From the NCBI RefSeq assembly GCF_019801965.1, contig NZ_JAHVIA010000003.1, positions 1-64,000 of the forward strand: a stretch of DNA of 64,000 nt, given 5' to 3'. The stretch comes from Salipiger bermudensis. Lineage in GTDB: Bacteria > Pseudomonadota > Alphaproteobacteria > Rhodobacterales > Rhodobacteraceae. Position 1 is the stretch's first letter, and every line of letters starts with the position of its first letter. Shown piece after piece: positions 120 through 16,267 of the stretch. The notes beneath the pieces are model-generated. The model made no database searches, had not been told where the DNA came from, and was given only the letters and a program-made list of their open reading frames with translations. The position numbers and the translations under genes were made by a program.

Positions 120-270
120 TCGTGGATGAATGCATGAGGTGATCACGGATCTCGTGCCACGCGAAGGACATCGGACGCCTGCCTTGCGGCCAGGCGTCCG
201 GCGCCTTCTCGTGGCCAGGTCAGGACGTCGCGCGTCTCTGCGATTTCGGGGGGTTGGGTGAATGCGCGCG

Positions 271-516: not shown

Positions 517-594
517 GAAAAAGCTCCTCTATGTGGAGCCCTTCCAATAATCAGCGGTTTGTTAGACCGTCTTCCGTCGCATGTTAGACCGTTA

Positions 595-2838
595 TTAGAC
601 GGGTTCCTCGACCGGGGCTTCGGCTACGTCTTCGGCTGGCTGTGCTTCAACGAGAAGGCGCCAGTATCCCCGTTTCGCGCCCGCGCCGATGTAGACGTCG
701 CGGATGCTGTCCCAGGCTTCTTTCCGGAAGGCCTGCTGCGGACTGCGCGACCCAAGTCCGTCCATCAGCTGCTTGACCTGGACATCGGGGCTGCCAGCCT
801 TCTCGGCCGCGACCAGTCGTTCGAAGATCGTGATCTGATCCGCACCCGTCAGCGCGAGCGATGTCTTGCCAGGAATGTGTAACGTCGCCGATTGCGTGCC
901 CGATCGCAGGACCTGCGGTGTCGCACCACCCCGCGCCAGCGAACGATTGGTTCGGTAGGCGAGTTCGAGCGCATCTCGGGAGAGAAGAAGATCGTCTGTG
1001 CCGGTTGAGATGCAACCAGAAACGGGGACGACGAGGTTCGGCCCCAGGTATCCGGGACCTTCAGTGCTGGCCGACAGCACGATTCCGACGCCTGCCGCGT
1101 TGCGCGCGCGCATCAGCTGATCTAGGCGCGAAATCGTCTTGAGGTCGTGAAGGCGGCGGGCGAAGTAGATCGGAACATCGGCACCGTCGATCCGCATGGA
1201 GCCGAGCAGCGACAGGTCCGGATCCAGCACCTGCGCCGCGAGCTTGTTCAGCATCGGCTTCAAAAGCCCAACCACGGTTTCGTGCAGCCACTCGCGGTTG
1301 ATCTCGTACATCTCGAGATCCGATGTTGGCCTCAGGCCCCCATCTTTTCCGAAGGCACCTTCAACACGCGACATGCCTTCGATGCCGGATGGCTTGACCT
1401 CGGCTTCTCGGCCCAGGTCATCATCGTCGATAAGCACAATGTCTTGGCGCCCCCGCCGGTCGAGAAGACCGCCTTGGATCATGCGGTCCGGATCGAGACC
1501 GAGCTCGCGCAGATACTCGCCGCTGACATCGTCCTCGGTCCGGTCGTGAAGCATGACCAGTTGCGGGAATATCCCGCGCAAGTCGGTGGGCTCGATCTGC
1601 TTGAAGGCGCTGAGAATGCCCCAGGCGTCGAGAAGCGCGAACCCGAGGTTGCGTTCATCCGGATCCTTGTTGCTCTGGAGCTTGCAGCTCTTCGAGCCGG
1701 AAATGGTGATGTTGAGCGTGCGTACCTTGTCGTCTCCGATGCGGTTGTAGGTGACGGCGATCCCCACGCGGCTGAAGCCATCGGCGCGGCGGAAGATGTT
1801 GTTGGGCTTCAGATATCGGTCGGCGACCTCCTCGATGTCGTCGTTGGCCGCCACCTTCAGAAGAAGCTTCCGGCTCCACGAGCCAAGGCGGATTTCAGCC
1901 TCGAGGACGCGCGCGTCCGTGATCTCGTAGCCAGAGATACGCGGCAGATCGAGCCGCAGCGAACTGCGGAAACGCGAAAGGTTGTAGCGCTTCCAGGTCA
2001 GCGGCTTCTGCGACACGTCGTGCCCCAGCGCCTCCTCGGCGAATGACCCGGCAACGCCCTGCCGCACGACCGGACTGTCCGCGCAGACCTCGATCTGACG
2101 GATGGCGGGCGTGTAGATGAGAGTGGCCTCGTTCGGCGGGCGATAATAGATCGTGCCCCGGCGCCCGTCGTCACGATGGTCATGGACGCTCGACAGCGGC
2201 CCGCCATGGCGAACGATCAGCATGATCGACGCTGGGTGCGCGGCAGTGGCGGGCAGATCCAGCGCCTTCACCGTGCAGGCGGTTTTAAGTTGCAGAACCG
2301 ACGTGATCTTCGCGGCCAGTGCCGCTTCGTCGATCGACCCCGAATTGAGGTTGACCGCTTTTTCGAGTTCCACCTCGAAGGCATCGTAAAGCTTGCCATA
2401 GTCCCTGAATTTTCGGGCGAAGTGGAAACTCTCTGCATCCTCGAATGTCTGGCGGGCATTCAGAAATGCCCAGATGCTCTTGCAGAGCGGATCGGGTTGC
2501 CGATCGAACTCGAGCGTTTGCTCGACGTCGAGTTGTTGTTCGGTGATTGCCGTGAGAGAATCGATACCCTTGCCTTCGGCGAGCGCCAGGACGCGGCGTG
2601 ATCTCTGCTCGGCGGGCCGCAATTCGTCTGCATCGAATTTCGACAGGATTTCCAACAGGCTCTGCCGAAACCCGTGAGCCAATTCCTCATCCGAGGGATC
2701 TGGCACATCTGTGGGCAGGCCGAAATCGGGCTCGTTGTCGCCCTCTCGCACCGCGAGGACAGCCCGGACGAGGTCAATGCGGGCATCCTCGATCAGGCTA
2801 TGGATGTGCGGGCCAACCGGGGATGCCTTTCGTGCCAT
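595..2838 (-). CDS. Large hypothetical protein (747 aa), function unknown
   Basis: I do not recognise this protein. It is soluble, with no signal peptide or membrane segment, rich in Asp, Glu, Arg and Leu, and begins MARKASPVGPHIHSLIEDAR. I see no Walker, HNH, PD-(D/E)xK or methylase motif. The region around residues 450-500 is acidic, with a run of four Asp in VLIDDDDLG. The C-terminal 90 residues (around YIGAGAKRGYW) could form a small winged-helix-like module, after which the chain ends in an acidic Ala/Glu/Pro tail. The gene diverges from the DUF2924-recombinase module starting at 3031 and lies 78 bases upstream of the Com-like gene in transcription order. It is probably a passenger or effector gene of the mobile region. 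Confidence 0.6.
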   Translation of the reverse strand: MARKASPVGPHIHSLIEDARIDLVRAVLAVREGDNEPDFGLPTDVPDPSDEELAHGFRQSLLEILSKFDADELRPAEQRSRRVLALAEGKGIDSLTAITEQQLDVEQTLEFDRQPDPLCKSIWAFLNARQTFEDAESFHFARKFRDYGKLYDAFEVELEKAVNLNSGSIDEAALAAKITSVLQLKTACTVKALDLPATAAHPASIMLIVRHGGPLSSVHDHRDDGRRGTIYYRPPNEATLIYTPAIRQIEVCADSPVVRQGVAGSFAEEALGHDVSQKPLTWKRYNLSRFRSSLRLDLPRISGYEITDARVLEAEIRLGSWSRKLLLKVAANDDIEEVADRYLKPNNIFRRADGFSRVGIAVTYNRIGDDKVRTLNITISGSKSCKLQSNKDPDERNLGFALLDAWGILSAFKQIEPTDLRGIFPQLVMLHDRTEDDVSGEYLRELGLDPDRMIQGGLLDRRGRQDIVLIDDDDLGREAEVKPSGIEGMSRVEGAFGKDGGLRPTSDLEMYEINREWLHETVVGLLKPMLNKLAAQVLDPDLSLLGSMRIDGADVPIYFARRLHDLKTISRLDQLMRARNAAGVGIVLSASTEGPGYLGPNLVVPVSGCISTGTDDLLLSRDALELAYRTNRSLARGGATPQVLRSGTQSATLHIPGKTSLALTGADQITIFERLVAAEKAGSPDVQVKQLMDGLGSRSPQQAFRKEAWDSIRDVYIGAGAKRGYWRLLVEAQPAEDVAEAPVEEPV

Positions 2839-3030
2839 GAAACCACCTCAACGAATAACTTCTCTTGTTTGATTCAACTTCCGATAATTGTGGACAAAAC
2901 CGCACCCTGCAAGACCCGATGTTCTTAACCTGTTCGCGTCGAGGAAGCTCATGTCGCTTTGATGTCCCGTCTCCATCGCCCGGATGGCTTTTGATCGGTA
3001 GCAACTCTACCGAACACGGCCGATCCCCGC

Positions 3031-3234
3031 ATGAAACGCCCCAATCCACTGCCTCCCGCCCAGATGACGCCCGCCGAACGCCGCACCGAGCTGTGTGGCC
3101 TGCTCGCCCTCGGGCTGGTCCGCCTGATGCGGCGCAATCGGAGCGAACCTTCTGACGATACTGGAGAAATTCGCCTACACTATTGGGCCGACCAATGCCG
3201 TCATGCAACCCCGAACCCAACGGAGAAAACATGA
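3031..3234 (+). CDS. Small conserved protein preceding DUF2924 and the recombinase
   Basis: This 67-residue protein is Arg/Leu rich. Its core MTPAERRTELCGLLALGLVR (from the ATG at 3064) resembles small proteins that commonly precede DUF2924 genes in alphaproteobacterial mobile regions. The first ATG is at 3031; the internal ATG at 3064 could be the true start. Its stop overlaps the ATG of the DUF2924 gene (ATGA at 3231-3234), indicating translational coupling. Its role is unknown. The coding call is supported by this junction and the compact operon; the biochemical role is not. Confidence 0.6.
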   Translation: MKRPNPLPPAQMTPAERRTELCGLLALGLVRLMRRNRSEPSDDTGEIRLHYWADQCRHATPNPTEKT

Positions 3235-3686
3235 CGACTCACGACCCCATCCCCGCGCGCCTGGCCGCGCTGAAGACTACACCGACGCCTGACCTGAAAA
3301 AGCAGTGGCGCGATCTGTTCGACAGCGAACCGCCGCCGTTCAACCGGCGCTTTCTCGAAAGCCGTATCGCCTACCGCATCCAGGAACTCGCCTATGGCGG
3401 CTTGAAGCCCGAGACGATCCGGCGGCTGGAACGGCTGGGCGAAGAACTGGACGGCGGCGACAAGAAGAAGCGCGGAATGCGCCTCGACCGCGACCGCCCC
3501 ATCACCGGCACGCGCCTCCTGCGCGAATGGCAGGGTGTCGAATACATCGTCACTGTCACAGCCGATGGCTTCGAATGGCAGGGGCGGCCTTACAAGTCGC
3601 TTTCTGCCATCGCGCGGGCCATCACCGGCACGCGCTGGAACGGCTGGGTCTTCTTCGGCCTCAAGAACCACAGGGGGCGGACATGA
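3231..3686 (+). CDS. DUF2924 family protein
   Basis: This 151-residue protein is read from the ATG at 3231, preceded by CGGAG. The N-terminal part resembles DUF2924 (PPPFNRRFLESRIAYRIQE). The C-terminal part contains PITGTRLLREWQGVEYIVTV and ends near GTRWNGWVFFGLK, a layout typical of the family. These proteins are almost always found just upstream of a large serine recombinase in alphaproteobacterial genomes, as here, and are presumed DNA-binding accessory factors of integration. The stop overlaps the recombinase start (ATGA, 3683-3686). An earlier in-frame start at 3183 is possible but lacks this spacing. Confidence 0.8.
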   Translation: MTTHDPIPARLAALKTTPTPDLKKQWRDLFDSEPPPFNRRFLESRIAYRIQELAYGGLKPETIRRLERLGEELDGGDKKKRGMRLDRDRPITGTRLLREWQGVEYIVTVTADGFEWQGRPYKSLSAIARAITGTRWNGWVFFGLKNHRGRT

Positions 3687-5006
3687 AGAAGCCGCCCGAA
3701 AAATCGAAGGTCGTCCGCAAGCTGCGCTGCGCGGTCTACACCCGGAAATCCTCCGAGGAAGGGTTGGAGCAGGAATTCAACAGCCTCCACGCCCAACGCG
3801 AGGCCTGCGAGGCGTACATTGCCAGCCAGCGTTCCGAGGGCTGGGTGCTGGTCCGCGATCAGTACGACGACGGCGGCATCTCCGGCGGCACGCTGGAACG
3901 GCCCGGACTGAAGCGGCTGCTTGAAGACATCGAGGACGGGCTGGTCGACGTGGTGGTGGTCTATAAGATCGACCGCCTTAGCCGCTCGCTCGCCGACTTC
4001 GCCAAGCTGGTCGAGGTGTTCGACCGGAACGGCGTGACGTTCGTCTCGGTCACGCAGTCGTTCAACACGACCACGTCCATGGGCCGTCTGACGCTGAACA
4101 TCCTGCTGTCCTTCGCCCAGTTCGAGCGCGAGGTCACGGCCGAGCGCATCCCGCGACAAGGTCGCCGCCAGCCGGAAGAAGGGGATGTGGATGGGCGGGG
4201 TGCCGCCCTTCGGCTACCGGGTGGATAACCGCAAGCTGCTCGTCGACGAGGACACCGCCGCGCATGTGCGTTGGATCTTCACCCGCTTCATCGAAATCGG
4301 ATCCTGCACGGTGCTGGCCAGCGAGGTCGGCGCGCGTGGCCTCGGCACGCCACGTGGCAACCGGATCGACAAGAAGTATCTGTACCGGATGCTGTCAAAC
4401 CGCGCCTACCTTGGCGAGGCGGTCCACAAGGGCGACAGCTATCCTGGCGAACACGACGCGATCATCGACCGCGAGACTTGGGACAAGGTTCACGCCATCC
4501 TGCAGGAGAGCCCCCGCAAGAGGGCTGCCCGGACTCGCTCCAGCACGCCCGCGCTGCTGAAGGGGCTTCTCTTCGGTCCCGATGGCGCCGCGTTCTCGCC
4601 GACACACACCCGCAAGGGCGGCAAACTCTACCGCTACTACGTCAGCCAGACGGTGCTGAAGCACGGCGCCGGGGCATGTCCCATCGGCCGCGTGCCTGCC
4701 GGCGAGATCGAGGCCGCCGTCATCGACCAACTGCGTGCCGTCTTCCGCCAGCCCGAGATTATCGCGGGCACATGGAAGGCGGCGCGGCCGCAGGGCGACG
4801 GGATCACCGAGGCCGATGCCCGTGACGCGTTGACTCGTCTGGATCCGCTGTGGGATGAACTCTTCCACGCAGAACAGGCGCGTATCGCGTCGCTGCTGGT
4901 CGAACGGATCGACATCGACACCGATGGCCTCGATGTTCGCCTGCGCATCGACGGGTTGACCGAGCTCGCGTGCGAAATGCTGGCAGATCTCGGAGCATCA
5001 AAATGA
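3683..5006 (+). pseudogene. Large serine recombinase, frameshifted
   Basis: The N-terminal resolvase domain starts at 3683. It carries the catalytic serine in YTRKSS, then DDGGISGGTLERPGL and KIDRLSRSLADFAKL, all typical of serine recombinases, and runs to QFEREVTAERI. There an extra C in the CCC run at 4150-4152 shifts the frame. Removing it restores RDKVAASRKKGMWMGGVPPF and the rest of the recombinase domain and C-terminal region, which are open in the other frame to 5006. The second half has LLFGPDGAAFSPTHTRKGGK where many relatives carry a cysteine zinc ribbon. As written, only the first roughly 160 residues plus an aberrant tail would be made. A sequencing error at the C run is the main alternative. 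The gene overlaps both neighbours by 4 bases. Confidence 0.85.
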
Positions 5007-5407
5007 ACCGTGCGAAGCCAACGCCGGAAACGGTGACAGTGCGAATCCCATTCCGACTGGTAAAGCGCGGCGGGCGCAAGGAGATGCAGCTGCCCGAAGG
5101 CGCGCCCCAGCGGCGGCGGACCGACAGCACACTGGTCAAGGCGCTGGCCCGCGCCTTCCGGTGGAAACGAATGCTCGAAACAGGCGCGTTCGCGACAGTC
5201 GCCGAGTTGGCTGCGCATGAGGGGATTGCACCGTCCTACATGACCCGATTACTACGGATGACGCTGCTCGCGCCGGAAGTAGTTCAGACTATCCTCGACG
5301 GGCGGCAAGGGGCCGAAATGACACTGGCGCGGATTCTGGAACCATTTCCAATTGAGTGGGAATACCAGACACTTGACGGTGCCGTTGAGTGGTACTCTAG
5401 GTTTTGA
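5003..5407 (+). CDS. HTH-like protein coupled to the recombinase
   Basis: This 134-residue protein is read from the ATG at 5003, which overlaps the recombinase stop (ATGA). The N-terminus is basic. The segment from TVAELAAHEGIAPSYMTRLL onward has the pattern of a helix-turn-helix (AxHEGIxxSYxxRLLRxxLLAP), as in KorB/ParB-like or phage-type binding domains. Similar genes follow DUF2924-recombinase modules in alphaproteobacteria, so a role as a recombination directionality or regulatory factor is plausible but inferred. It is the last gene of the 3031-5407 module. Confidence 0.65.
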   Translation: MNRAKPTPETVTVRIPFRLVKRGGRKEMQLPEGAPQRRRTDSTLVKALARAFRWKRMLETGAFATVAELAAHEGIAPSYMTRLLRMTLLAPEVVQTILDGRQGAEMTLARILEPFPIEWEYQTLDGAVEWYSRF

Positions 5408-5466
5408 GGTGGCTGGCGAATGAATTCGATAATATGGTAGGCGGAATACCAGAAAGGAAACTAGGA

Positions 5467-6576
5467 ATGTCTGATTGGTTTGAAACACACACAGCGAGTA
5501 TCGTGGCTGACCGACCAGTTGCGCATGATGCTTCTTTGCCCGTCTATTCCACCAAGCTTGGTGAAATGTATCTGGGGCAGTCCGAGGACGTTCTTTGCAC
5601 CAAACCTGTAAAAAAATATGCAGGCCAGGTTCAACTTGTGATGACCTCACCGCCATTCCCGTTAAACACTAAGAAAGCCTACGGAAATCGAACGCAGGAT
5701 GAATACGTTGAATGGTTCGCCGATTTTGCGCCGATTTTGCGCGATATGGTGACCGAAGACGGGTCGATTGTAATTGAAATCGGCAACGCGTGGATGCCTG
5801 GTCGTCCCGTAATGTCAGTTCACGTTATGAAGGCTTTTCTGAACTTTTTGGAAAAGGGTGATTTACATCTTTGCCAAGAATTCATTTGGTACAACCCTGC
5901 ACGTCTTCCGTCACCTGTAGAATGGGTCAATAAAGAACGATCTAGAGTCAAAGATGCGTTCACACGCATTTGGTGGATGTCACCGAACGAGCGGCCGAAA
6001 GCCGACAATCGAAAAGTTCTGCGCGAATACAGTCCCAGCATGAAGCGATTGATCAAGTCTGGAAAGTACAACGCCGGGCCACGGCCCTCAGCTCACAATA
6101 TTGGGGCAGAGAGCTTTAAGACCGACAACAAGGGGGCGATCCCGCCAAATGTTGGTGATGTTGACGGCATTCCGCCGATCGACGGAGTGATTTCGCAAGA
6201 ACAGTTCGAACAAACCCTGCAACTTGTCTCTGAGTTTCAGGGAGCCACGAACCTAATAAGGGCTGCCAACACAGTATCAAGCGATGGCTATCGCAAATTT
6301 TGCCTCGATCAAGGAACTCAGGTTCACCCAGCGAGAATGCCAAGGAGTCTGGTGGACTTTTTTGTGCGGTTTCTTACCGACGAGGGCGACATGGTTCTCG
6401 ACCCATTTGCGGGAAGCAACACCACCGGCGCGGTTGCCGAGGATCTCGGACGTAAATGGCTCGCAGTTGAGGCCGATTGGAAATACGCAGCGCACTCAAT
6501 AGGCCGCTTTCCTCCAACTAGCCTCTTATCCACATGTCAGGGCATCACGTTCGAACCTCGCCGGAATGGGCGATAA
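5467..6576 (+). CDS. DNA N4-cytosine methyltransferase, PvuII-type (beta class)
   Basis: This 369-residue protein is read from the ATG at 5467 (preceded by AAAGGA and AGGA); a TTG at 5404 is in frame but less likely. Catalytic motif IV, TSPPFPL, is near residue 60, and the AdoMet-binding motif I, DPFAGSNTTGAVAEDLG, is near residue 312. The order IV-TRD-I defines the beta class. The TSPPF followed by KKAYGN, together with the FAGSNTTG form, is like M.PvuII, which makes N4-methylcytosine. The recognition sequence cannot be predicted. No adjacent classical restriction endonuclease is seen. Instead the gene converges on the operon at 6669-13920, for which it is the likely self-marking enzyme. GC is lower than in the chromosome, consistent with transfer. 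Confidence 0.85.
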   Translation: MSDWFETHTASIVADRPVAHDASLPVYSTKLGEMYLGQSEDVLCTKPVKKYAGQVQLVMTSPPFPLNTKKAYGNRTQDEYVEWFADFAPILRDMVTEDGSIVIEIGNAWMPGRPVMSVHVMKAFLNFLEKGDLHLCQEFIWYNPARLPSPVEWVNKERSRVKDAFTRIWWMSPNERPKADNRKVLREYSPSMKRLIKSGKYNAGPRPSAHNIGAESFKTDNKGAIPPNVGDVDGIPPIDGVISQEQFEQTLQLVSEFQGATNLIRAANTVSSDGYRKFCLDQGTQVHPARMPRSLVDFFVRFLTDEGDMVLDPFAGSNTTGAVAEDLGRKWLAVEADWKYAAHSIGRFPPTSLLSTCQGITFEPRRNGR

Positions 6577-6668
6577 ATAAATTCTACTAAATAGGAAAGA
6601 ATCAGCCATGCACAGAAGCGTCAATTCCGCGGGAAATTCGATATTGCCCAAAGCTTGCCGATAGTTAT

Positions 6669-9245
6669 TTACTCATCAGCTTCATCGGCTTCATCAGACA
6701 AGTCTCGCTCCTTTATCTCCCAGATACCATCCCCAAGGTAACGCGTACCTGACGACGAAAGCGCATGCGACACAGTACTCTTGTCAATCTGCCGTTCAGT
6801 GATGAATTCTAGCCAGTCCTTAATGTCCGAAATTTTCATTGGCCCTGGAACCTGTTGCATCAGCCTGTCGAGCGCAGTTTTAAGTGTAACCCGCCTGGTG
6901 CCGCCCCATTCTTTCAAGTAGGCGAAGCGGCCAACACCGATTGCTATTCGATCATCTAATGCAGCAATACTAAAGATGGCCTCCGCGTCCACCAAAGGCG
7001 AGCAATCGATGTACTGCTTCAGCTCATCTAGATGTATCCCGGCGCCCTTTTTCCGAAGCGCGCTGAAAACCTTGTCGACGAGGGCTGGTTGTTGGTCTCG
7101 CTTCACTACAAGATCTCGGTCGTTTAGCCCCCAAAGACCTCGTCCCACCCGCAATACTGGGTCACGGTTCCATATCTGAAAGGTACTGTTTACTCCTCTG
7201 AATTCAGAAAGACGCTTGTTGACTTCACCCGTTGAAAGTGGGCCGCCGGCAGCTTCCAAAATCCCAATGACGGCATCTCTAAGGTCAACGCGATGTTGAT
7301 CATCCGCTTCGGGAAGAGCCCAAACTAGTCGACCAAGGTACTTCAATGGCGACTTCATCTGTAGTGCAACATTAAGCCCGTATTTATCCATTCTTTCGCA
7401 TAGAGCGCCATCTATTTCTTGTAACTCCGACACCAATTCGGAGGCATGCCATTGACGGCCATCGGCTTGGTCCGCCACGATATCGAATGCCATTTCCGCC
7501 ACCTTCTCAATCTCGGCATCGGATAAAGGAACGTGTTTCCTGAGGCCGTAGGTTCCTCGGCCAAGAAGAACACCTACGTTAGCAACAGCGTTGCGAATTT
7601 GAGACTCACCGATATGCCTGCCCGAGATTTCGCTAACCATCTGGGCCACCTCGCTCGTGTGGAGCGGGTTTGGACTATCTTCTAAGGCAACTTGAACCAG
7701 TTGCTCTATGCCGCGCCCGTAGGCAGTAAGGGTCCGCGAGTCCTCAGATCCGGAAAAATGACAAAGGCGGGATGCCTCAGCCCAGAGAAGTGGCGTCAAT
7801 TCTTTCCCTTGATCAGGAAAGAAGCATTCAACTGTCTGGCGGCATTCCCTCTCCGACCAATTAAGGTCGACCGCGCTCTCGAGCAGTTGCCGAGCTTCCC
7901 TTAGCTTTTCGTTCCAAGTTTCCTGGTCGACACGGGATACATAACCAACAGTGCCGACTTTCAAAACATGGAAACGCTTCTCGCAAATCGAGTCTATCAG
8001 ATACGCAAGGACGTCTTGCTTACCGGAAGTGCCTCTAAACCAGTCATCCACGACCTCTAACCCGAAGAGAGGCAATGGTTCTTCCCGAGACTCTAAAATA
8101 GCGCTTAGCCGATGGCGCATCACATCATCCCAGAGCTCTTTTGTGATGATACGATCAAGTGTTCGCTTCTCAATTTGACGAATTCGTTCGCGTGTTATGC
8201 CGTAATCGCCGCCGAGATCCTCGAGTGTTCGTGGCGGTTCATTGAAACCCATTCGACCGAGGAGGACCTTGCGATCCCGGTCTTCGATTTCATTTAATGT
8301 TTTGAGAAGGTTTCCAATCAATCCGAGCGAGATAGCCGCGGATGATTCGCCAGTCTGGCCACGTACAACATCGTTTTCTCGCGTATGTCCCGACCCCCGG
8401 TCAAATAAGGCCATTGAGGCGTGTGTATCGATCGCTCCACGACGGAGGCCTTCAAGAAGAGCTTCAGCTAAGTGCTTTTTTGAATGGCGCCCAAAGTTTT
8501 TCAGGCGAAAAAGTTCCGCCTCTGAATAGTGGTCCAGGTCGGAGACGATCTTTATCCGGTTGTTGCTAAAAACGTTCCCTAGACGAACCGTCAGAGACAA
8601 TCTTCCGACTTCAAGAGACCGGAGCCACGGCGGCGCACAGCGCACAATGTCCAACGGATCGTCTGGGTCCTGAATCAAAGAGTCAAAGCGAAACTGCCCC
8701 AACGAGGTTCGAATTGAATCCTGCAACTCTCCCTCTTTCTCGAGGTAGCTTTCTTCATCATAGATGCCCAACTGATTCAAGTTTCCCTCAATCTCGGGAG
8801 CCACTGACAAGAATTCAGACACCCATCCACGCGCAACGGGCACTTGATTAACGCCGCATGCCGTGTAATCGTTGCCTGAAAATCCTGTTTGAGATATTAA
8901 ACGTACAGTTGGATCCTTAATACTGTATCCCCAGCCTTCAAGAGCGAGAAATATAGGCAAGTCATCCACTTCGGCGACTTTTGCTACTGAGCATTTGAAA
9001 GGCTGCGGCAGCACAAATTTGGCGCTCTGAGTCACGAGCATCCGCCCTTCGTTGTTGCTAGCAACTTCATTGAAAACGCGTGTCGGCGGGCGCCCGAAAC
9101 CTACATGTATGACACCTGCAAGTGCTCCATCCGCCAGTAACCTGGTCCATTCCTCGTGAACCTCTTCCAGTTTCTGGGAGACAAAGATTTTCCATTCCGA
9201 CCCTCGTTTTTGGGTCATTAAAAAGAGTCTGAGCGGAGAGTTCAT
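6669..9245 (-). CDS. Alpha-CTD / sigma region 4 / repeated winged-helix fusion protein
   Basis: This 858-residue protein has an unusual build. Residues about 215-268 match the RNA polymerase alpha C-terminal domain (helix-hairpin-helix, SEAELFRLKNFGRHSKKHL). Residues about 316-366 match sigma-70 region 4.2 (RTLEDLGGDYGITRERIRQI). From about 512 to the end there are roughly five repeats of 55-70 residues, each closing with a wing-like string: LGRGTYGLRK, LGRLVWALPE, VGRGLWGLND, IGVGRFAYLK, LGDGIWEIKE. These look like tandem winged helices of the HARE-HTH kind. The first 210 residues are unassigned. It is the last gene of the operon, with its ATG overlapping the upstream stop by 4 bases. It may bind promoter or modified DNA, or capture RNA polymerase; that is inference. 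The alpha-CTD and sigma matches are clear by eye. Confidence 0.75.
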   Translation of the reverse strand: MNSPLRLFLMTQKRGSEWKIFVSQKLEEVHEEWTRLLADGALAGVIHVGFGRPPTRVFNEVASNNEGRMLVTQSAKFVLPQPFKCSVAKVAEVDDLPIFLALEGWGYSIKDPTVRLISQTGFSGNDYTACGVNQVPVARGWVSEFLSVAPEIEGNLNQLGIYDEESYLEKEGELQDSIRTSLGQFRFDSLIQDPDDPLDIVRCAPPWLRSLEVGRLSLTVRLGNVFSNNRIKIVSDLDHYSEAELFRLKNFGRHSKKHLAEALLEGLRRGAIDTHASMALFDRGSGHTRENDVVRGQTGESSAAISLGLIGNLLKTLNEIEDRDRKVLLGRMGFNEPPRTLEDLGGDYGITRERIRQIEKRTLDRIITKELWDDVMRHRLSAILESREEPLPLFGLEVVDDWFRGTSGKQDVLAYLIDSICEKRFHVLKVGTVGYVSRVDQETWNEKLREARQLLESAVDLNWSERECRQTVECFFPDQGKELTPLLWAEASRLCHFSGSEDSRTLTAYGRGIEQLVQVALEDSPNPLHTSEVAQMVSEISGRHIGESQIRNAVANVGVLLGRGTYGLRKHVPLSDAEIEKVAEMAFDIVADQADGRQWHASELVSELQEIDGALCERMDKYGLNVALQMKSPLKYLGRLVWALPEADDQHRVDLRDAVIGILEAAGGPLSTGEVNKRLSEFRGVNSTFQIWNRDPVLRVGRGLWGLNDRDLVVKRDQQPALVDKVFSALRKKGAGIHLDELKQYIDCSPLVDAEAIFSIAALDDRIAIGVGRFAYLKEWGGTRRVTLKTALDRLMQQVPGPMKISDIKDWLEFITERQIDKSTVSHALSSSGTRYLGDGIWEIKERDLSDEADEADE

Positions 9246-9622
9246 TGGGCTGATGCTTCGTCCACGCTCTTCAGAAGGGCAGCAAAATCCAGCTGCCCCT
9301 GCGAGGCCTGTTCATACAGTTCACGAACGCCCCAATCCGCCAGGCGCTCGGCGACTCGATAGACTGAGGTAGTCGTTAGTTCATCTTCGTACAATGCCTC
9401 GATAGCGCTCCGTATCAACTGCCCCGGGTCAAGCGATCCCACGTTAAACAATGTCTTTCGCTTTCCGATCTCTGAGGGAACAATACCGGAAGCAACAGCA
9501 AAACTGATCGCGAATCGATAGCCGTCCAGTTTATCAGCAAAGATTTCTTGCTCTTTCATCTGATCAAGGAGATCGTCGGCGTGCTCGGAAAGACCGACCG
9601 TTGTGACTTCAGATTCAATCAT
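9242..9622 (-). CDS. DndE-like small protein (126 aa)
   Basis: This is a helical, acidic protein. Its N-terminal half reads VGLSEHADDLLDQMKEQ and then DGYRFAISFAVASGIVPSEI. This pattern is reminiscent of DndE (a lsExaddlLdqLk helix followed by an R-F-a-ish helix) but too diverged for certainty. It overlaps the DndD-like gene upstream and the 858-residue gene downstream by 4 bases each. DndE proteins bind nicked DNA and complex with DndC and DndD in phosphorothioation systems. Here no DndC is present, so any DndE-like role would be in a complex with the neighbouring ATPase. The coding call is secure; the family call is tentative. Confidence 0.6.
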   Translation of the reverse strand: MIESEVTTVGLSEHADDLLDQMKEQEIFADKLDGYRFAISFAVASGIVPSEIGKRKTLFNVGSLDPGQLIRSAIEALYEDELTTTSVYRVAERLADWGVRELYEQASQGQLDFAALLKSVDEASAQ

Positions 9623-11604
9623 AGTTTGGACCTTTCGATTTTCGTCTGTGTCTCTGAGACCTCGATCAGATCGTAAACCGCGCCGATACGGTCCTTAATG
9701 GACTCAAGATCTGTTTCTCGACGAATCTCGCCGCCATGAACGAACAAGACAAACTGAGTGGTCACCGACGGTAGGTAGCCCAAAATGTTGTTCCGGTGCT
9801 TAGGGTCGAGGCGGCCGAATGGAGTGTCCATCACCACTGGTCCCGCCGATCGGCCCGTCCTGTTGAGTCCATCTATTAATGATAGTGCGACGATCTGTTC
9901 AGCACCGGCGCTTCGCATCGAAACGGTGCGTCCATGGCTGTCGATAATACTCAGACCATAATTTTCGTTTATCTGGAGACCTTGATAAGCGCCCTGCGTC
10001 GTCATTTCGCGAAAAGCGTCGCTCGCCAGTTGCTCGACTTTGCCACGAAGCCGGTCACGGAGCTTTTCGATACTAGCTGAGAAAGCTCTTTCCAAATTGG
10101 AGGTTAGTGCAACTTTCTTGGTGGTCTTGTCGGCCCTCGCTGATGCCACTCCTTCAATTGCCTTTCTTGCGATCGCGAGGTCTTCCTTAACCTTCCGGAT
10201 ATTGGTCCTCACACTGTCAACATCGCTGTTCAGCTTTCCTTCTTCCTTAAGGAGATCCGCAATCCGCGACCGTTTTCGAGCAATTTCGGTTGCGTCCTGC
10301 TCATCGATTTTATCCTCAATGTCTTCAATCTCGTTCTCCGCTTTCTGAAGCTTGATCTGCGCGAGATTCACGTCCTTTTGGATCTGAAACAACCGCTGCC
10401 CCGCACCAGATCCACGAATTTTTTCCAGGTTGCCAAGTTGAGCTGATATTTCATTAAGTCGGGCGCTTACATCTTTCTGAGCCATAAGCCCGGCTTGCAT
10501 TTCACCGAGTGTCGTCTTTAGAGTTTCGCGGATTTGGCCCGTAACCGGCTGCAGACACGTTGGACAGGAGTCAGTATCAATCAACTGTTGGAGACGATCA
10601 ATGTCCGCTTCAAATCGGGAGGTTGTCTTTATTTCTCCAGTAACGCGAAGCTGCTCCTCCCGCAGTTTTCTCTTCTTTTCGCCCAGTCGTGCGTCGAGCA
10701 TGTCCTTCCAAGCAGAGGCTAGTACTTCATGGCGCTCGGTGTACTTCCGAGCAATGGTGGATTGGCTTTCGTCGCGGTCAGCTCGAGCGGCGTCAAGTTT
10801 GGCCTTTAGCGCAAGAACCGTCGCAGCAGCCTCAATTTCGTCTTCCAGGTTTTCGCGTTCCTCGCGAACCCCAGAGATCGAGGCTTCAAGATATTTTTGA
10901 TCAGCTTCAAAGGCCTCTAGCTTCTCGTTCAAAGCGTCGGTGCGCAATGCTTGTGCTTTCAGGCCCTGGATGTGAGCCAGTGCCTTGGTTTGGGCTCGCG
11001 AAGCATTCTTTAGAATGGTGCCGAGTTCATCACGTCCTCTGACTAGAGTCGGAACACCTAAAGCTTGCTCAATCGCGTCTTTGATCTGGCGCCCTTGTTC
11101 GCTTCCTTCGAACAGAAGCTCCTCATACTCCTGAAGCAGTTCACCGTCAAAAAGGAAGAATCGTGACGTCTGCTCGGGGGCAACTTGATCGAGTTCATAG
11201 GCCACTTGGTTGCCCGCGACGACAGAGCCATTTTTCTTCAGTAGTACTGAGGTCTGCAGGTCTTCCGAACGGAAAGGACGCACGACTGGGGAGCGGCGGT
11301 CCGCCGTCCGGCGAAGCTCGAAGACATCACCGTTAGCTTCGAATTCAACAAACACTTCGACGCGCCAGTTGTCCTCGAGCAATGCGTCCTTATTGACGAT
11401 ATCTATCAGAGGGATGAGGCGGGAATGCCTTCCCAACGCCTTTTCATAGAAGCCCCATCGAAGTGCGTTGAGAAGCGAGGTCTTCCCCCTCATATTGTCG
11501 CCAAAGACGAGCATCACATTTTGGGACCCGTCTTTAGGAAAATCAATAACAGCCTGGTCTTTGTAAGGCATGAAGTTCTTCATTGTCAGACGGATGAGCT
11601 TCAT
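9619..11604 (-). CDS. DndD-family ABC/SMC-like ATPase with zinc hook
   Basis: This 661-residue ATPase is built like Rad50/RecF. Walker A is GDNMRGKT at about residues 35-42. The DndD-characteristic FFLFDGE is at about 149-155. Long coiled coils flank a CPTC zinc hook at 347-350. A signature region MRSAGAEQIVALSLIDGLN is near 565, Walker B PVVMDTPFGRLD near 590, and the H-loop His near 623. The signature-Walker B stretch is very close to DndD in style. DndD has ATPase activity and acts in DNA phosphorothioation or its sensing. Homologues without DndC occur in other defence loci. The gene overlaps its neighbours on both sides by 4 bases and is the central motor candidate of this operon. Confidence 0.85.
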   Translation of the reverse strand: MKLIRLTMKNFMPYKDQAVIDFPKDGSQNVMLVFGDNMRGKTSLLNALRWGFYEKALGRHSRLIPLIDIVNKDALLEDNWRVEVFVEFEANGDVFELRRTADRRSPVVRPFRSEDLQTSVLLKKNGSVVAGNQVAYELDQVAPEQTSRFFLFDGELLQEYEELLFEGSEQGRQIKDAIEQALGVPTLVRGRDELGTILKNASRAQTKALAHIQGLKAQALRTDALNEKLEAFEADQKYLEASISGVREERENLEDEIEAAATVLALKAKLDAARADRDESQSTIARKYTERHEVLASAWKDMLDARLGEKKRKLREEQLRVTGEIKTTSRFEADIDRLQQLIDTDSCPTCLQPVTGQIRETLKTTLGEMQAGLMAQKDVSARLNEISAQLGNLEKIRGSGAGQRLFQIQKDVNLAQIKLQKAENEIEDIEDKIDEQDATEIARKRSRIADLLKEEGKLNSDVDSVRTNIRKVKEDLAIARKAIEGVASARADKTTKKVALTSNLERAFSASIEKLRDRLRGKVEQLASDAFREMTTQGAYQGLQINENYGLSIIDSHGRTVSMRSAGAEQIVALSLIDGLNRTGRSAGPVVMDTPFGRLDPKHRNNILGYLPSVTTQFVLFVHGGEIRRETDLESIKDRIGAVYDLIEVSETQTKIERSKL

Positions 11605-11819
11605 TTGAAAACCTCGGATTCGGCTGACAGTTTCTCAACTTCGGAGTCAATTAGTCTTTCCATCTCAGCCATCGGCAGCGAGCGGTCAGAAGTAAACTGA
11701 TTGTTCTTTTGAACAAAGTAGCATGCACGAATAAGCTCTTCCGGCAAGTCTGGGGCAACCTCCAAGCGTTGTGCCAAAAGTACTTCGAGTGCAATGTCTG
11801 GTCCTGACCGTTCAGTCAT
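11601..11819 (-). CDS. Small acidic helical protein (72 aa) between helicase and ATPase genes
   Basis: This 72-residue protein is rich in Glu, Leu and Ala, containing LPEELIRACYFVQKNNQF and ending in a charged helix (MERLIDSEVEKLSAESEVF). There is no membrane segment or metal site. It overlaps the helicase stop by 8 bases and the ATPase start by 4 bases, so its synthesis is almost certainly coupled to both. Small proteins of this size accompany DndD-type ATPases in other DNA-modification-linked loci; a bridging or regulatory subunit role is inferred. It is short but well supported as coding by the two overlaps. Confidence 0.65.
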   Translation of the reverse strand: MTERSGPDIALEVLLAQRLEVAPDLPEELIRACYFVQKNNQFTSDRSLPMAEMERLIDSEVEKLSAESEVFK

Positions 11820-13920
11820 CTTCTTCTACTCCGTCTCGAGCTGCAAGGTCGTCTATGTCGATGCCCATTTCCATGGCAATCGCCCTCAATTCCGCTCCAG
11901 CTGACTTGTTGATGGCACCATTAGCGAACTCAATAGCACGTATCAGTTCCCCACGGAGGAGGCCAAGTTGCTCGGGTTCAGACTCCGACCTCAATGGTCG
12001 CACGATTGCGTCATGAATCTGTGCCATGTTCTTACCAGGAGAAATCCGCAATACTCTTCCTCGTCGCTGAATGAATTGCCTTGGGTTTTGAGACGACGCT
12101 AAAATCAGTGCGTGGGAAACCTTGGGTATGTCTACTCCCTCGTCGAGGCACTTGATTGAAACCAGAATGCCGCCAAACTTGTGGAACCATTCCATCGTGG
12201 CCACTCGATCGCCAATCATGTTCGAGTGGTACTCGATAGTCTCAATTCCCGTCACCCGAAGCGCGTTTACAACATCGCCAAGTTGCTCACTGTCCTCGCA
12301 GTAGATCAGCCAACTCTGACCGTCGCGGTACTCCCGTTTGATTGTACGAACTGCAAGATCCACCTTCGCTGTCGCCTTCTTGGCAATCCTCGAACGTTGA
12401 ATGAGCAGCATTTTTGCTCGTTCGCTTAGCAGCTTTTTTCCGTTGGCATCGGTGCTGCTTCTTGCGATTTCCTTTTTTATTCTATTTGTGAAATCAAGCC
12501 ATTGGTCCGCTTCATCCGCGTTAAGGCTGATCGCGTGCGGGAAATACTGATAAGGCACCAAGCGACCGGCTTTCATGGCATCTCCAAGCGTGATTGGTGG
12601 AGGCACAACACCGCCGAAGTAGTCCATGAGCCTTTTTGTTCCCTCAGTATCGCCGTAGCGCCGTGGTGTCGCGCTCAGTCCAAGTCTTAGGCCCGCCGCT
12701 ATCTTGAGCGCACGCGAATTAATGGGACTGCCTATTTGATGAACTTCGTCAACAACCAGCAGCAGTTCGTCGCTCTCAGCGACCCCTGCCAGAAAGAGAT
12801 CAGTTGCAGCGGTGGGCATCATAGCCAATGTTACCCGTGGTCCTAATTCCAGATCTGCAGCTGTCATGCTCTTGAGCCTACCGTGCAACTTCCAACGGTT
12901 TTGACCATCACCAGCCAGCATCAAGGCCGCGTCTGGTATCTCATCGCTTATCTCTTCAGCCCACTGATGCAGCAGTAGCCTGCTCGGCACGAGAACAAGG
13001 GCAGGTTTGCCGGTCCTGACATGATCTCTGATTGCTACGATCGCTGTGAAGGTTTTGCCAGTTCCAGTTGCGTGCTCAAAGATGCCGCGGCAACCTTGCC
13101 TTCGCCAAGCCTCAAGTGCCTCGGTTTGGTGTGGCAGGGGTTGTCGGCGTGACGTCGAGGTGACTGGGACGCTTTCCATGATTTCTTCGATGCTATTAGC
13201 GGCGTATTTGCGTAGATAGATTTCGGCCGTCTCGGGGAACGCCGAGACCGTGACGCTAGGATCCTTCCCCGACCAGAGTGTCGCGAAATGGTTTCTATGT
13301 TTCTCGATCCGGATCCTATCGGAAGGCCCATCCCAATCGCAAAAAACTTCAATTGCTTCGAAGTTTCCTTCTGCGTGCCAGCCGCTCCATGTTTCATTTG
13401 TTGATCCACGGAAGCTTACGGTGTGACCAAAGCCATCTGTGAAAAGTCCAATCTTCTCATGATATATGCCATTTCCAGAAATCAGTTGAGCTAGCCTAAC
13501 CTCTAGTGCCCCACAAGAAATAAGAGTTGCTAGGGCTTTGGCAGGAAAGGCTGTCGAGGGCTCAGCTAGCAATCGATCAAATTCTTCAATAACCGCTGAG
13601 GCCAAAACTTCGTCGCGACGCGCGTAACCGCCTGAAATACTTCTGACATCCTCCTCACTGAGGCTCGGCGAGCAGATCAGTTGAATTCGACCTCCGCGAC
13701 GTGCGAACTCGAGAAGTGTCCGTCCAATGATCAGCAAAACAGAAGATCGAAAATAGCCGACAGCTCTTTGATATAGATCAGCATTTCGAAGGCATTTTTT
13801 GTAAAAAGTCTCGACCGGATCATTCTTTGTAGAGCGGTATTCAGTATCAAGGTCGAGTTTTGATAAATCCCCCCTAAAAGCAATCTCCGTTGCATTATTA
13901 GTCATTATTGCTCTTTGCAT
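11812..13920 (-). CDS. PLD-type nuclease fused to SF2 helicase
   Basis: This roughly 702-residue protein opens the operon. The N-terminal part (about 1-200) is phospholipase-D-like: GYFRSS, an HxK in GIYHEKIGLF, then GSTNETWSGW, as in PLD-family nucleases. It is followed by a superfamily 2 helicase with Walker A ATGTGKT near 285, DEVH near 392, SAT near 417 and motif VI QRRGRVLR near 635. PLD-helicase fusions of this form serve as restriction factors in DNA-modification defence loci. In-frame starts exist at 13938 (TTG), 13920 (ATG) and 13905 (ATG, AAAGAG upstream); I use 13920 but 13905 is equally plausible. Only one PLD half-site is evident, so dimerisation would be expected. Base composition is lower in GC than the chromosome. 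Confidence 0.85.
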   Translation of the reverse strand: MQRAIMTNNATEIAFRGDLSKLDLDTEYRSTKNDPVETFYKKCLRNADLYQRAVGYFRSSVLLIIGRTLLEFARRGGRIQLICSPSLSEEDVRSISGGYARRDEVLASAVIEEFDRLLAEPSTAFPAKALATLISCGALEVRLAQLISGNGIYHEKIGLFTDGFGHTVSFRGSTNETWSGWHAEGNFEAIEVFCDWDGPSDRIRIEKHRNHFATLWSGKDPSVTVSAFPETAEIYLRKYAANSIEEIMESVPVTSTSRRQPLPHQTEALEAWRRQGCRGIFEHATGTGKTFTAIVAIRDHVRTGKPALVLVPSRLLLHQWAEEISDEIPDAALMLAGDGQNRWKLHGRLKSMTAADLELGPRVTLAMMPTAATDLFLAGVAESDELLLVVDEVHQIGSPINSRALKIAAGLRLGLSATPRRYGDTEGTKRLMDYFGGVVPPPITLGDAMKAGRLVPYQYFPHAISLNADEADQWLDFTNRIKKEIARSSTDANGKKLLSERAKMLLIQRSRIAKKATAKVDLAVRTIKREYRDGQSWLIYCEDSEQLGDVVNALRVTGIETIEYHSNMIGDRVATMEWFHKFGGILVSIKCLDEGVDIPKVSHALILASSQNPRQFIQRRGRVLRISPGKNMAQIHDAIVRPLRSESEPEQLGLLRGELIRAIEFANGAINKSAGAELRAIAMEMGIDIDDLAARDGVEEDD

Positions 13921-14370
13921 TTCTCGGCTTTGATACAAGCCCTTCTTGTTGGACGAACGTTTTGACTTCTACCCTCGGACCATCTCCAGCTTCGGTCAAT
14001 CCCGGTTCTACTCATCGGCCGCGGTTGGAAGGATTCGATTGGTGCCATGGTATGGTTTTCGATTCATGAGGATGCACTTCGGGAGCCGGCGGGGCAAGCA
14101 ATGAAACGGTTGCACGCTTTCAAGAGCCGATCGGGGATTTCTGCTGCCTTGGCCAGTGGTTCGATGTGTGTTCCATAAGCCGAAACGACTGACGTCGAAG
14201 TGGTCAGATCGGCAGGTCAAAAAACTGTGAACTTTCTGTGCCTTGCAAGCCATTCACCTAACCGACGCAGTCATGAGGTCCGGAGAATATAGGCCCTGAG
14301 AGACTGCATCCAGGCCTCCTGGCGCGGCGGCCAGTGCTCAGCCCCACCCGCATAACCCCCGAATACAACG
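13921..14370. other. Intergenic region spanning the accessory/core boundary
   Basis: About 450 bases without a convincing gene. It holds the promoter of the operon that runs left from 13920. The composition changes here: the left half resembles the accessory region, and from about 14280 the GC is chromosomal. A small open frame at 14008-14253 has composition and codon use unlike a gene. The island edge must lie in this stretch or to its left, because the tRNA-Ser terminator at 14371-14393 is intact. Confidence 0.5.
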
Positions 14371-14393
14371 GAAAAATCCGGCCGCAGCCGGAT
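14371..14393 (-). terminator. Rho-independent terminator of tRNA-Ser
   Basis: On the minus strand ATCCGGC, a four-base loop, then GCCGGAT followed by five T. It lies about 27 bases beyond the tRNA 3' end and points the same way. Confidence 0.75.
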
Positions 14394-14419
14394 CGGGAGA
14401 ACGCTTTCGCGCGGGCAAG

Positions 14420-14509
14420 TGGCGGAGAGGAAGGGATTCGAACCCTCGAGACGGTTTCCCGCCTACACACTTTCCAGGCGTGCGCCTTCGACCACTCGGC
14501 CACCTCTCC
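14420..14509 (-). tRNA. tRNA-Ser (anticodon GGA)
   Basis: The cloverleaf reads from 14509 leftwards. The acceptor stem is GGAGAGG paired with CCTCTCC, then discriminator G and an encoded CCA. The D arm is GCCGAG...; the anticodon loop is CTGGAAA with GGA; there is a long variable arm as expected for serine; and the T loop is GGTTCGAATCC. It decodes UCC/UCU. The gene is intact and sits on the core side of the accessory region. Confidence 0.95.
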
Positions 14510-14567
14510 GCCGACCCCTTTAGCGGAACACCCAACCCCGTTGCAAGGGGCAAAACCCCGATAAGAC

Positions 14568-14594
14568 AAAGCCCCGGACAATGTCCGGGGCTTT
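14568..14594 (-). terminator. Rho-independent terminator after ETF-QO
   Basis: On the minus strand AAAGCCCCGGAC, a short loop, then GTCCGGGGCTTT continuing into TGTC. It lies about 27 bases past the ETF-QO stop. The symmetric A and T flanks would let it work in both directions, which would also insulate the tRNA gene. Confidence 0.8.
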
Positions 14595-14620
14595 GCCACA
14601 CGCGACGCGAGAAAGCGCCG

Positions 14621-16267
14621 TTACATGTTGGGATAATTCGGGCCGTCACCGCCCTGCGGCACCGTCCAGGTGATGTTCTGGGCCGGGTCCTTGATGTCGC
14701 AGGTCTTGCAGTGGACGCAGTTCTGGAAGTTGATCACGAAGCGCGGCTTGCCGTCATCCTCGACGAACTCGTAGACCCCGGCCGGGCAATAGCGCTGCGA
14801 CGGGCCGGCGAAGCTGGTGTAGTCGACCGCGACCGGCACGTTCTCGTCCTTAAGGCGCAGGTGGCAGGGCTGGCTTTCCTCGTGGTTGGTGAACGAGAAC
14901 GACACGTTGGTCAGGCGGTCGAAGCTCAGCTTGCCGTCGGGCTTGGGATAGTCGATCGGCTTGTGGTGGCTCGCCGGCTCGGTCGAGGCCGCATCGGTCT
15001 TGCCGTGGCCCATGGTGCCAAAGAACGAGAAGCCGAGCTGGTTGGTCCACATGTCGAGCCCGCCCATCGCGAGCGAGGCCGACATCCCCCATTTCGACCA
15101 CATCGGCTTGACGTTGCGCACCTTCCACAGGTCCTTGCCGATGGCGCCCTCGCGGACCTCGGTCTCGTAGGCGCTCAGCTCGTCCGACGCGCGGCCCGCC
15201 TGCAGCGCCTCATAGGCTGCCTCGGCCGCCGCCTTGCCCGAGAGCATGGCATTGTGGTTGCCCTTGATGCGCGGCACGTTGACCATGCCCACCGAGCAGC
15301 CCAGCAGCGCCACGCCGGGCGCGACCATCTTCGGCATCGACTGGTAGCCGCCCTCCGAGATCGCCCGCGCGCCATAGGCCACGCGCTTGCCGCCCTCGAG
15401 CAGCGCCGCCACGTGCGGGTGATGCTTGAAGCGCTGGAATTCCATGTAGGGGAAGAGGTGCGGGTTCTTGTAGTTCAGGTGCACCACGAAGCCGACATAC
15501 ACCTGGTTGTTGTCGATGTGGTAGATGAAGGCACCGCCACCGGCATTGCCGCCCAGCGGCCAGCCCATGGTGTGCTCGACCCGGCCCTCCTTGTGCTTGG
15601 CGGGATCGATCTCCCAGATCTCCTTCATGCCGAGGCCGAATTTCTGCGGCTCCTTGCCCTCGGAGAGATTGTATTTCGCGATGACTTCCTTGGAGAGCGA
15701 GCCACGCACGCCCTCGGAGAGGAACACGTACTTGCCGTGCAGCTCCATGCCCGGCTCGTAGCCCGGGCCGGCGGTGCCGTCGGGGTTCTTGCCGAACTCG
15801 CCCGCGATCACGCCCTTCACTTCGCCATTGTCGCCATAGACCAGCTCCGAGCAGGACATGCCCGGGAAGATCTCGACCCCGAGTGCCTCGGCCTGCTCCG
15901 CCATCCAGCGGCAGACATTGGCCATCGAGACGATGTAATTGCCGTGGTTCGACATGAACGGCGGCATCGGCCAGTGCGGGATGGCCATTTTGCCGGCCTC
16001 GCCCAGCATGTAGAACTTGTCCTCGGTGACCGGCACCGAGACCGGGGCGCCCTTTTCCTTCCAGTCGGGGATCAGCGCGTCGAGCCCGCAGGGATCGAGC
16101 ACCGCACCGGACAGGATATGCGCGCCAACCTCGGAGCCCTTCTCGAGCACCACGACCTCGAGATCGGCATCAAGCTGCTTCAGGCGGATCGCCGCGGACA
16201 GGCCAGACGGCCCTGCCCCGACGATCACCACATCATATTCCATCGACTCGCGCTCGATCTCGGACAT
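14621..16267 (-). CDS. Electron transfer flavoprotein-ubiquinone oxidoreductase
   Basis: This 548-residue inner-membrane-associated flavoprotein passes electrons from reduced ETF (fed by acyl-CoA and amine dehydrogenases) to ubiquinone. The N-terminal FAD fold has VVIVGAGPSGLSAAIRL. The C-terminal 4Fe-4S domain has one Cys in RYCPAGVYE and three in NCVHCKTCDIKDP. The start at ATG 16267 has GGAGGGG about 7 bases upstream; an upstream in-frame ATG at 16309 lacks such a site. Length matches the family. It is monocistronic between its terminator and greA (divergent), and serves the acyl-CoA dehydrogenase encoded at 21250-22950. Confidence 0.95.
   Translation of the reverse strand: MSEIERESMEYDVVIVGAGPSGLSAAIRLKQLDADLEVVVLEKGSEVGAHILSGAVLDPCGLDALIPDWKEKGAPVSVPVTEDKFYMLGEAGKMAIPHWPMPPFMSNHGNYIVSMANVCRWMAEQAEALGVEIFPGMSCSELVYGDNGEVKGVIAGEFGKNPDGTAGPGYEPGMELHGKYVFLSEGVRGSLSKEVIAKYNLSEGKEPQKFGLGMKEIWEIDPAKHKEGRVEHTMGWPLGGNAGGGAFIYHIDNNQVYVGFVVHLNYKNPHLFPYMEFQRFKHHPHVAALLEGGKRVAYGARAISEGGYQSMPKMVAPGVALLGCSVGMVNVPRIKGNHNAMLSGKAAAEAAYEALQAGRASDELSAYETEVREGAIGKDLWKVRNVKPMWSKWGMSASLAMGGLDMWTNQLGFSFFGTMGHGKTDAASTEPASHHKPIDYPKPDGKLSFDRLTNVSFSFTNHEESQPCHLRLKDENVPVAVDYTSFAGPSQRYCPAGVYEFVEDDGKPRFVINFQNCVHCKTCDIKDPAQNITWTVPQGGDGPNYPNM

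Follow-up and report, generated by a model that had tools for sequence, protein, structure and literature searches.

A putative methylation-based relative of the PbeABCD system on a serine-recombinase element at a tRNA-Ser gene

We analysed a stretch of 64,000 nucleotides from Salipiger bermudensis (contig NZ_JAHVIA010000003.1, positions 1 to 64,000; hereafter, the window), in which six genes at 5467–13938 appear to constitute a PbeABCD-related defence system that is based on methylation and borne by a serine-recombinase element at a tRNA-Ser gene (probability about 0.75). Four of the five minus-strand genes are PbeA, PbeB, PbeC and, by predicted fold, PbeD, and cytosine methylation probably takes the place of sulfur as the mark of self. 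The interest of the locus lies in the remaining minus-strand gene (hereafter, the fifth gene), which encodes a protein of 858 amino acids (aa) built from DNA-reading parts of RNA polymerase. According to the open reading frame (ORF) listing, one plus-strand methylase gene converges on the five minus-strand genes (708, 72, 661, 126 and 858 aa), whose successive overlaps are 8, 4, 4 and 4 bases. The GC content of 1-kb bins is 49–53% across 5–14 kb, compared with 59.5–73% in the other bins. An initial annotation, made from the DNA letters and their translations, had described both a methylase facing five genes that overlap by 4–8 bases and a locus of lower GC than its flanks, and both descriptions were confirmed. 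The locus is compact and mobile, its motifs are intact, and its methylase has a likely site that can be checked.

The 708-aa protein, which starts at a TTG at 13938 or an ATG at 13920, matched the PADLOC profile of PbeA with an E-value of 8.4e-209. Its phospholipase D (PLD)-type domain fell below the Pfam cut-off (PLDc_2, E 1.7e-4), and its score against TIGR04095 (317.8 bits) did not reach the cut-off of 600; across 398 genomes of the phylum, this model gave matches at E <= 1e-30 in eight, including the own genome, none of them above the family cut-off. The HxK residues H154 and K156 and the GSxNET, DEVH and QRRGR motifs (numbered from 13920) are nevertheless invariant in 5/5 rows of the alignment; here and below, the five-row alignments include one row near-identical to the window. 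The 661-aa protein matched PbeC far better than any DndD (PADLOC E 3.9e-262 vs 4.6e-46), and its Walker A, hook, signature and Walker B motifs are invariant in 5/5 rows. The hook reads C347-P-T-C350, a CxxC that is likewise invariant, whereas the motif is written 'CxC' by Rakesh 2024 (PMC10853773). Between these two genes, the 72-aa protein gave a match below cut-off to Sp-DndD (PF20306, E 5.1e-4), and its homologue on NZ_CP015441.1 is annotated as 'DNA modification system-associated small protein'; its position, size and conservation hold in five loci, consistent with PbeB. Profile searches of PADLOC, Pfam and NCBIfam returned no useful sequence match for the 126-aa protein, and its profile found nothing better than E 0.28 among PDB sequences. 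When its best AlphaFold model was compared with PDB structures, however, DndE filled the top 17 places, with E-values of 6.5e-3 to 0.1, probabilities of 0.99–1.00 and TM-scores of up to 0.70/0.77, which points to a DndE-like PbeD. The PLD-superfamily 2 (SF2) helicase, the DndD-like zinc-hook ATPase and the DndE-like 126-aa protein of the initial annotation were thus borne out, the last by its predicted fold. Its statement that no named system has this gene set did not hold, since the PADLOC matches and the DndE fold identify four of the five genes as PbeABCD and methylase-linked Pbe systems are in print; the idea of an unknown six-gene system was rejected on the same grounds.

The methylase ORF spans 5404–6576 on the plus strand. 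The ATG at 5467, whose methionine is invariant in 5/5 rows, yields a protein of 369 aa that matched PF01555 (Pfam, E 2.6e-31) and the M.PvuII structure 1boo (PDB search, E 6.1e-75), in agreement with the PvuII-type methyltransferase first annotated. It is circularly permuted, with the SPPF motif first and the DPFAG motif last, and TSPP and DPF are invariant in 5/5 rows. Its site is presumably that of M.PvuII, CAGCTG. The gene converges with the pbe genes in the window and in locus L001 (comparison loci and genomes carry L and G numbers, respectively); in L032, L033 and L042 it comes first, adjoining PbeA and running in the same direction, and the convergent methylase of the window is a departure from this usual layout. 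The initial annotation had also reported DndA, DndB and DndC as missing. For DndC this stands: the dndC model, which finds dndC over cut-off in L075, L137 and L138 and gives no match over cut-off in 14 control genomes, has no match in the own genome (99.97% complete), dndC being the sole dnd gene searched genome-wide.

The 858-aa protein contains the C-terminal domain of the RNA polymerase alpha subunit (alpha-CTD, residues 211–263, Pfam E 2.1e-7) and sigma region 4 (sigma4, residues 317–366, E 4.4e-10), both above the cut-offs, which match RpoA and SigA, respectively, in the PDB. Residues R221, N224, G252 and S255 of the alpha-CTD, invariant in 4/4 rows and aligned with RpoA, occupy what we take to be the DNA-contacting positions of E. 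coli alpha; the TRERIRQ sequence of sigma4, equally invariant in 4/4 rows, aligns with SigA. Sigma region 2 was not found in the Pfam scan, and the approximately 200 N-terminal residues match zero Pfam families. The structural model has a mean predicted local distance difference test (pLDDT) score of 56.8, with helix-helix-helix-strand-strand units repeated in its better parts, and its best PDB structure match is the winged helices of SelB (E 1.4e-3), a hint that tandem winged helices may continue to the end of the protein. HARE-HTH matched 2/4 members of the family (best E 2.3e-4), the window protein not being among them. The alpha-CTD/sigma4/winged-helix fusion of the initial annotation therefore stands, its winged helices coming from a low-confidence model. 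In the four upstream regions compared we found no convincing shared promoter motif: no 9- or 10-base word occurs in at least three of them, and two eight-base words do, against 0.66 expected.

The fifth gene lies directly 3′ of PbeD in five loci (window, L001, L032, L033 and L042), each with a PvuII-type methylase. The two genes overlap by 4 bases in the window, L001 and L032 and are separated by 7 bases in L033 and by 1 base in L042. All six genes are present in L001, at 89–98% protein identity, and in L032 and L033, at 36–68%; retention of the same set at this distance indicates that the grouping is more than chance. L042, a plasmid of Aurantiacibacter atlanticus, carries the methylase followed by PbeA, PbeB, PbeC and PbeD, with a relative of the fifth gene interrupted by an insertion sequence (IS). 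L032, L033 and L042 belong to different genera, which answers positively the question, raised in the initial annotation, of whether the five-gene order recurs elsewhere with a beta-class methylase. A decayed locus from another family (L078, genome G571) retains a methylase fragment, PbeA, PbeC, PbeD and the fifth gene, in that order and with broken frames, and in this region a PbeB match sits between PbeA and PbeC (L037). In the PbeA and PbeC trees (12 and 14 rows), the five loci cluster together with support of 100/100; the trees contain several long branches and leave out L078.

Among the matches listed, long relatives of the 858-aa protein occur in 4/198 genomes of the family (G000, G024, G052 and G102, the own genome included), the other listed matches covering only about the sigma4 or alpha-CTD part. 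Its C-terminal part was found in 2/385 genomes of the class at E <= 1e-5 (the own genome and G571), and PbeC in 4/385 at E <= 1e-20. A search of genome contigs for the 858-aa protein returned one locus, L001; plasmid searches with this protein and with PbeC returned one record each, the same record, and relatives of neither were found in viral contigs. L034 (G102) holds a solitary relative at 13766–15679, with 51% identity over 595 aa and a different N-terminus, and no Pbe gene within 20 kb.

The PbeC profile matched 7/198 family genomes at E <= 1e-15, and relatives of the fifth gene are not confined to the methylase-bearing loci. In G000, G024 and G052, both the methylase and the fifth gene are present. 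In G029 and G192, by contrast, PbeA and PbeC occur with a dndC over cut-off, and a sigma4 protein is encoded directly before PbeA. The sigma4 protein of G192 (1041 aa) shares homology with the 858-aa protein across sigma4 and part of the winged helices, and its gene overlaps PbeA by 4 bases; that of G029 is split across two contigs, whose pieces contain an alpha-CTD and sigma4 and match HARE-HTH below its cut-off. A 1017-aa sigma4 protein of G808 (L077) also overlaps PbeA by 4 bases, with a DndB- or DpdB-type gene nearby; dndC was not identified there, and the phosphorothioate (PT)-linked sigma4 loci are those of G029 and G192. Genes of this type are thus found in two kinds of Pbe system and offer a way to test how Pbe locates and deals with unmarked DNA. 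Two other arrangements were seen. L141 (1–12502) encodes a sigma2/sigma4 protein akin to those of MZA-type loci, approximately 6.6 kb from a Pbe-like pair of PbeA and PbeC. L074 (6899–11403) is a different methylase-led gene set, in which genes for a HATPase protein, an SF2 helicase that gave no PLD match and a 266-aa protein that matched no Pfam family come after a PvuII-type methylase.

The pbe operon is the cargo of a serine-recombinase element inserted at the 3′ end of tRNA-Ser(GGA). The recombinase module, common to L001, L032 and other elements, encodes proteins of 67 and 167 aa, a serine recombinase in two frames (3677–4228 and 4185–5006; Pfam Resolvase E 6.5e-38, Recombinase E 7.8e-15) and a 145-aa protein resembling helix-turn-helix (HTH) regulators. 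The two-frame recombinase at 3677–5006 resembles a decayed or frameshifted gene. The window and L001 have one common block, 3029–14448, which is 90.5% identical, and homology to L001 and L032 begins at 3029/3030. The right end of the block adjoins a tRNA-Ser, with anticodon GGA in the window (ARAGORN), TGA in L001 and GCT in L032. The left end is not fixed; in 1–14000, the longest repeats of the tRNA end that were found did not exceed 11 exact bases, or 14 when a mismatch was allowed. Five loci at the same tRNA-Ser(GGA) were fetched from 15 congeners with flank; all five are island-free, with homology stopping at 14414–14420, and none of the six proteins was found in them, L118 showing only 1.3 kb past the tRNA.

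The 168-bp right end of the element has a match at E <= 0.001 in 68/198 family genomes, the own genome included. It is directly followed by TGGCGG in 17/17 loci looked at and by a tRNA-Ser in 13/20, the window among them, with anticodons GGA, CGA, TGA and GCT. Of 17 loci beside such ends (L081–L097), two are under 3 kb; among the other 15, the recombinase module is present, in whole or in part, in nine and absent from six. Ten cargo proteins from eight of the nine module-bearing loci, picked by eye as resembling restriction-modification (R-M) proteins, all matched type I R-M, other methylase or Vsr families, and such cargo in sister elements supports a defence role for the cargo slot. These loci outline a family of serine-recombinase elements at tRNA-Ser genes, with all four anticodons seen and cargo of R-M type. 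In L142 (3102–12959), an MZA-like system (a sigma2/sigma4/ankyrin protein, a HATPase and an MzaC-like protein) adjoins the same recombinase module, its MzaA and MzaC matches lying below their cut-offs.

Methylase-linked Pbe systems are already known: the proposal dates from 2019, and by 2024 descriptions had appeared, some of them of systems with circularly permuted N4-cytosine (N4C) methylases. In the accessible text of Xiong 2019 (PMC6459918), base-modifying, methylase-type genes lie within 10 kb of 155/320 PbeAC loci without dnd genes; the same work reports that PbeABCD with DndCDEA cut SNJ1 plaque formation approximately 10,000-fold, that deletion of any pbe gene impairs this protection and that PT-modified virus escapes. 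Rakesh 2024 (PMC10853773), as far as its text was available, describes PbeA as an HKD-SF2 protein, PbeB as a small protein, PbeC as a CxC ATPase and PbeD as a DndE cognate, and some of its neighbourhoods carry 5-methylcytosine or circularly permuted N4C methylases, the methylase-bearing ones often together with MTaX1. The words 'sigma' and 'RNA polymerase' are absent from the text of PMC6459918, 'sigma' appears only once in PMC10853773, concerning DndH, and no alpha-CTD/sigma4 Pbe gene is mentioned in the accessible parts of PMC12707154 and PMC12839542. Within the portions of the Pbe literature searched, the fifth gene is thus unmentioned; a prior mention in Krishnan 2020 or in the HARE-HTH paper of 2012 is possible.

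Self-marking by methylation is the best inference for this locus. The PvuII-type enzyme would methylate cytosine N4 at its sites, leaving the DNA of its own cell marked. DNA would be scanned by PbeC, which resembles SMC ATPases, together with the DndE-like DNA-binding PbeD, and an unmarked site would activate PbeA, which would then travel along the DNA and cut or block it. The small PbeB, to judge from its homologues, may serve as a regulator or linker. Through its coupling to PbeD, the 858-aa protein, with its two promoter-reading modules and row of winged helices, could help to choose targets or sense the methylation state; from its domains, we think that it is a DNA-reading subunit and not a true sigma factor, because region 2 is missing. 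A broader proposal, which we offer tentatively and consider rather improbable, is that many Pbe systems, with PT as well as N4-methylcytosine marks, have a fifth subunit that has been overlooked, namely the alpha-CTD/sigma4/winged-helix protein. In it, the parts with which RNA polymerase reads promoters would act as a target sensor, Pbe being loaded at promoter-like invader DNA before the modification is checked.

The 858-aa protein might instead do no more than regulate transcription of the operon, holding Pbe back while the host is still unmethylated, a role that has a parallel in the C proteins of R-M systems. The invariant alpha-CTD and sigma4 residues that align with RpoA and SigA make promoter binding by the protein plausible. 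We nonetheless find a purely regulatory role somewhat unlikely, since the protein is large and encoded by the last gene of its own operon, no 9- or 10-base word recurs in at least three of the four upstream regions compared, and in the PT-linked loci its sigma4 relative precedes PbeA instead. It is also doubtful that the fifth gene is the 'MTaX1' of PMC10853773, in which case the whole set would already be described. That paper, in its accessible text, ties MTaX1 to methylase-bearing systems, and the N-terminal part of the 858-aa protein has no Pfam family; yet the only 'sigma' passage of the paper is about DndH, and PT-linked loci, too, encode relatives of the 858-aa protein. Abortive defence, in which PbeA would cut host DNA upon sensing infection and methylation would be a separate safeguard, is put forward as an alternative in the same source. 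We consider it quite unlikely, because in the PT-linked Pbe system that was tested a marked virus escapes, according to the available part of PMC6459918, which fits self/non-self sorting. That the six genes are ordinary island neighbours rather than one system is hardly credible: the convergent methylase of the window could be a separate insertion, but in L032, L033 and L042, from different genera, it stands beside PbeA and is co-directional with it, and the fifth gene comes after PbeD in all five loci.

Several points weigh against a methylation-based Pbe system with a fifth subunit. The assignment of the 126-aa protein to DndE leans on one good AlphaFold model of five (mean pLDDT 81, the other four reaching 60, 58, 46 and 40), and neither this protein nor the 72-aa protein was matched by PADLOC PbeB or PbeD. 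PbeA and PbeC of G126 (L134) are accompanied by two other N6/N4-type methylase genes, and the 20 kb around them lack a relative of the fifth gene. In L135 (G012, 217–2824), where the region before PbeC is off the contig, PbeC and PbeD are followed by the right end of the element and tRNA-Ser(GGA), the fifth gene being absent after PbeD. The 858-aa profile gave zero matches in L071, L073, L075, L076, L079 and L080, although the Pbe systems visible in L071 and L080 are incomplete; L072 was too short to judge. The fifth gene is thus recurrent in Pbe loci and not universal, and its absence from several of them indicates that Pbe can do without the 858-aa protein. In the haloarchaeal system of PMC6459918, in the text available, cleavage of virus DNA was not seen and pbeBCD without pbeA retained low-level resistance, so that cleavage by PbeA is disputed. 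Finally, Pbe systems with a methylase were predicted from gene neighbourhoods, and the Pbe literature searched, in its accessible parts, contains neither an experimental test of them nor activity data.

Coordinates of the locus and its element are given in Table 1. The flank at 1–3029 has, beyond the starting repeat, only matches of approximately 40 bases in 15 congeners, and its 747-aa gene (595–2838) has zero Pfam matches. The repeat at 1–120 recurs at the starts of other contigs of the own genome and in congeners, so the contig begins at an IS-like repeat. Of the surroundings with IS and recombinase genes described initially, the recombinase was found, in two frames at 3.7–5.0 kb; for IS there is this repeat at 1–120, other IS genes not having been looked for. 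Scans for promoters (6 vs 5.8 expected) and terminators (10 vs 10.5) were at chance.

Table 1. Features of the Pbe locus and of the element that carries it, in window coordinates.
Feature	Position	Strand	Basis
N4-cytosine DNA methylase, M.PvuII type	5467..6576	+	PF01555, PDB 1boo, motifs
Fifth gene, 858 aa	6669..9245	-	Pfam alpha-CTD and sigma region 4
PbeD (putative), DndE-like, 126 aa	9242..9622	-	AlphaFold model, PDB structure matches
PbeC, DndD-like coiled-coil ABC ATPase, 661 aa	9619..11604	-	PADLOC PbeC
PbeB, small protein, 72 aa	11601..11819	-	weak Sp-DndD match, named homologue
PbeA, PLD-type nuclease and SF2 helicase, 708 aa	11812..13938	-	PADLOC PbeA
Recombinase module of the mobile element	3031..5407	+	Resolvase, Recombinase
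Conserved 168-bp right end of the element	14252..14419		family-wide matches
tRNA-Ser(GGA), integration site	14420..14509	-	ARAGORN

Among known systems, DndCDEA-PbeABCD, as far as its description was available, resembles the window in having PbeA, PbeB, PbeC and PbeD in the same order; the window differs in that a cytosine methylase replaces the PT genes, no dndC is present in the own genome and the 858-aa gene is added. The CxC ABC ATPase-DndE systems share the HKD-SF2 protein, the small protein, the ATPase, the DndE cognate and a circularly permuted N4C methylase. The accessible text on these systems (PMC10853773) mentions no alpha-CTD/sigma4/winged-helix protein, MTaX1 being known here by description only, and the hook of the window protein is CxxC.

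MZA loci are likewise defence loci that encode a large sigma4-containing protein, MzaA, which is named a sigma factor in NCBIfam (NF041931). By definition, MZA systems combine an MzaA that carries sigma region 2 with a neighbouring MutL-like ATPase and a protein bearing a Z1 domain; a Pfam scan of the window operon found no such neighbours. Region 2 and ankyrin repeats, both lacking in the 858-aa protein (40.2 bits against the MzaA profile, cut-off 800), are present in the MzaA-like proteins of L140 and L142, and L142 has HATPase and MzaC-like neighbours, whereas the window operon has neither. The PvuII R-M system shares the methylase type (1boo); in PADLOC, Pfam and NCBIfam scans, none of the other five window genes encodes an endonuclease of the PvuII kind, and the Pbe proteins would take the restriction role in its place.

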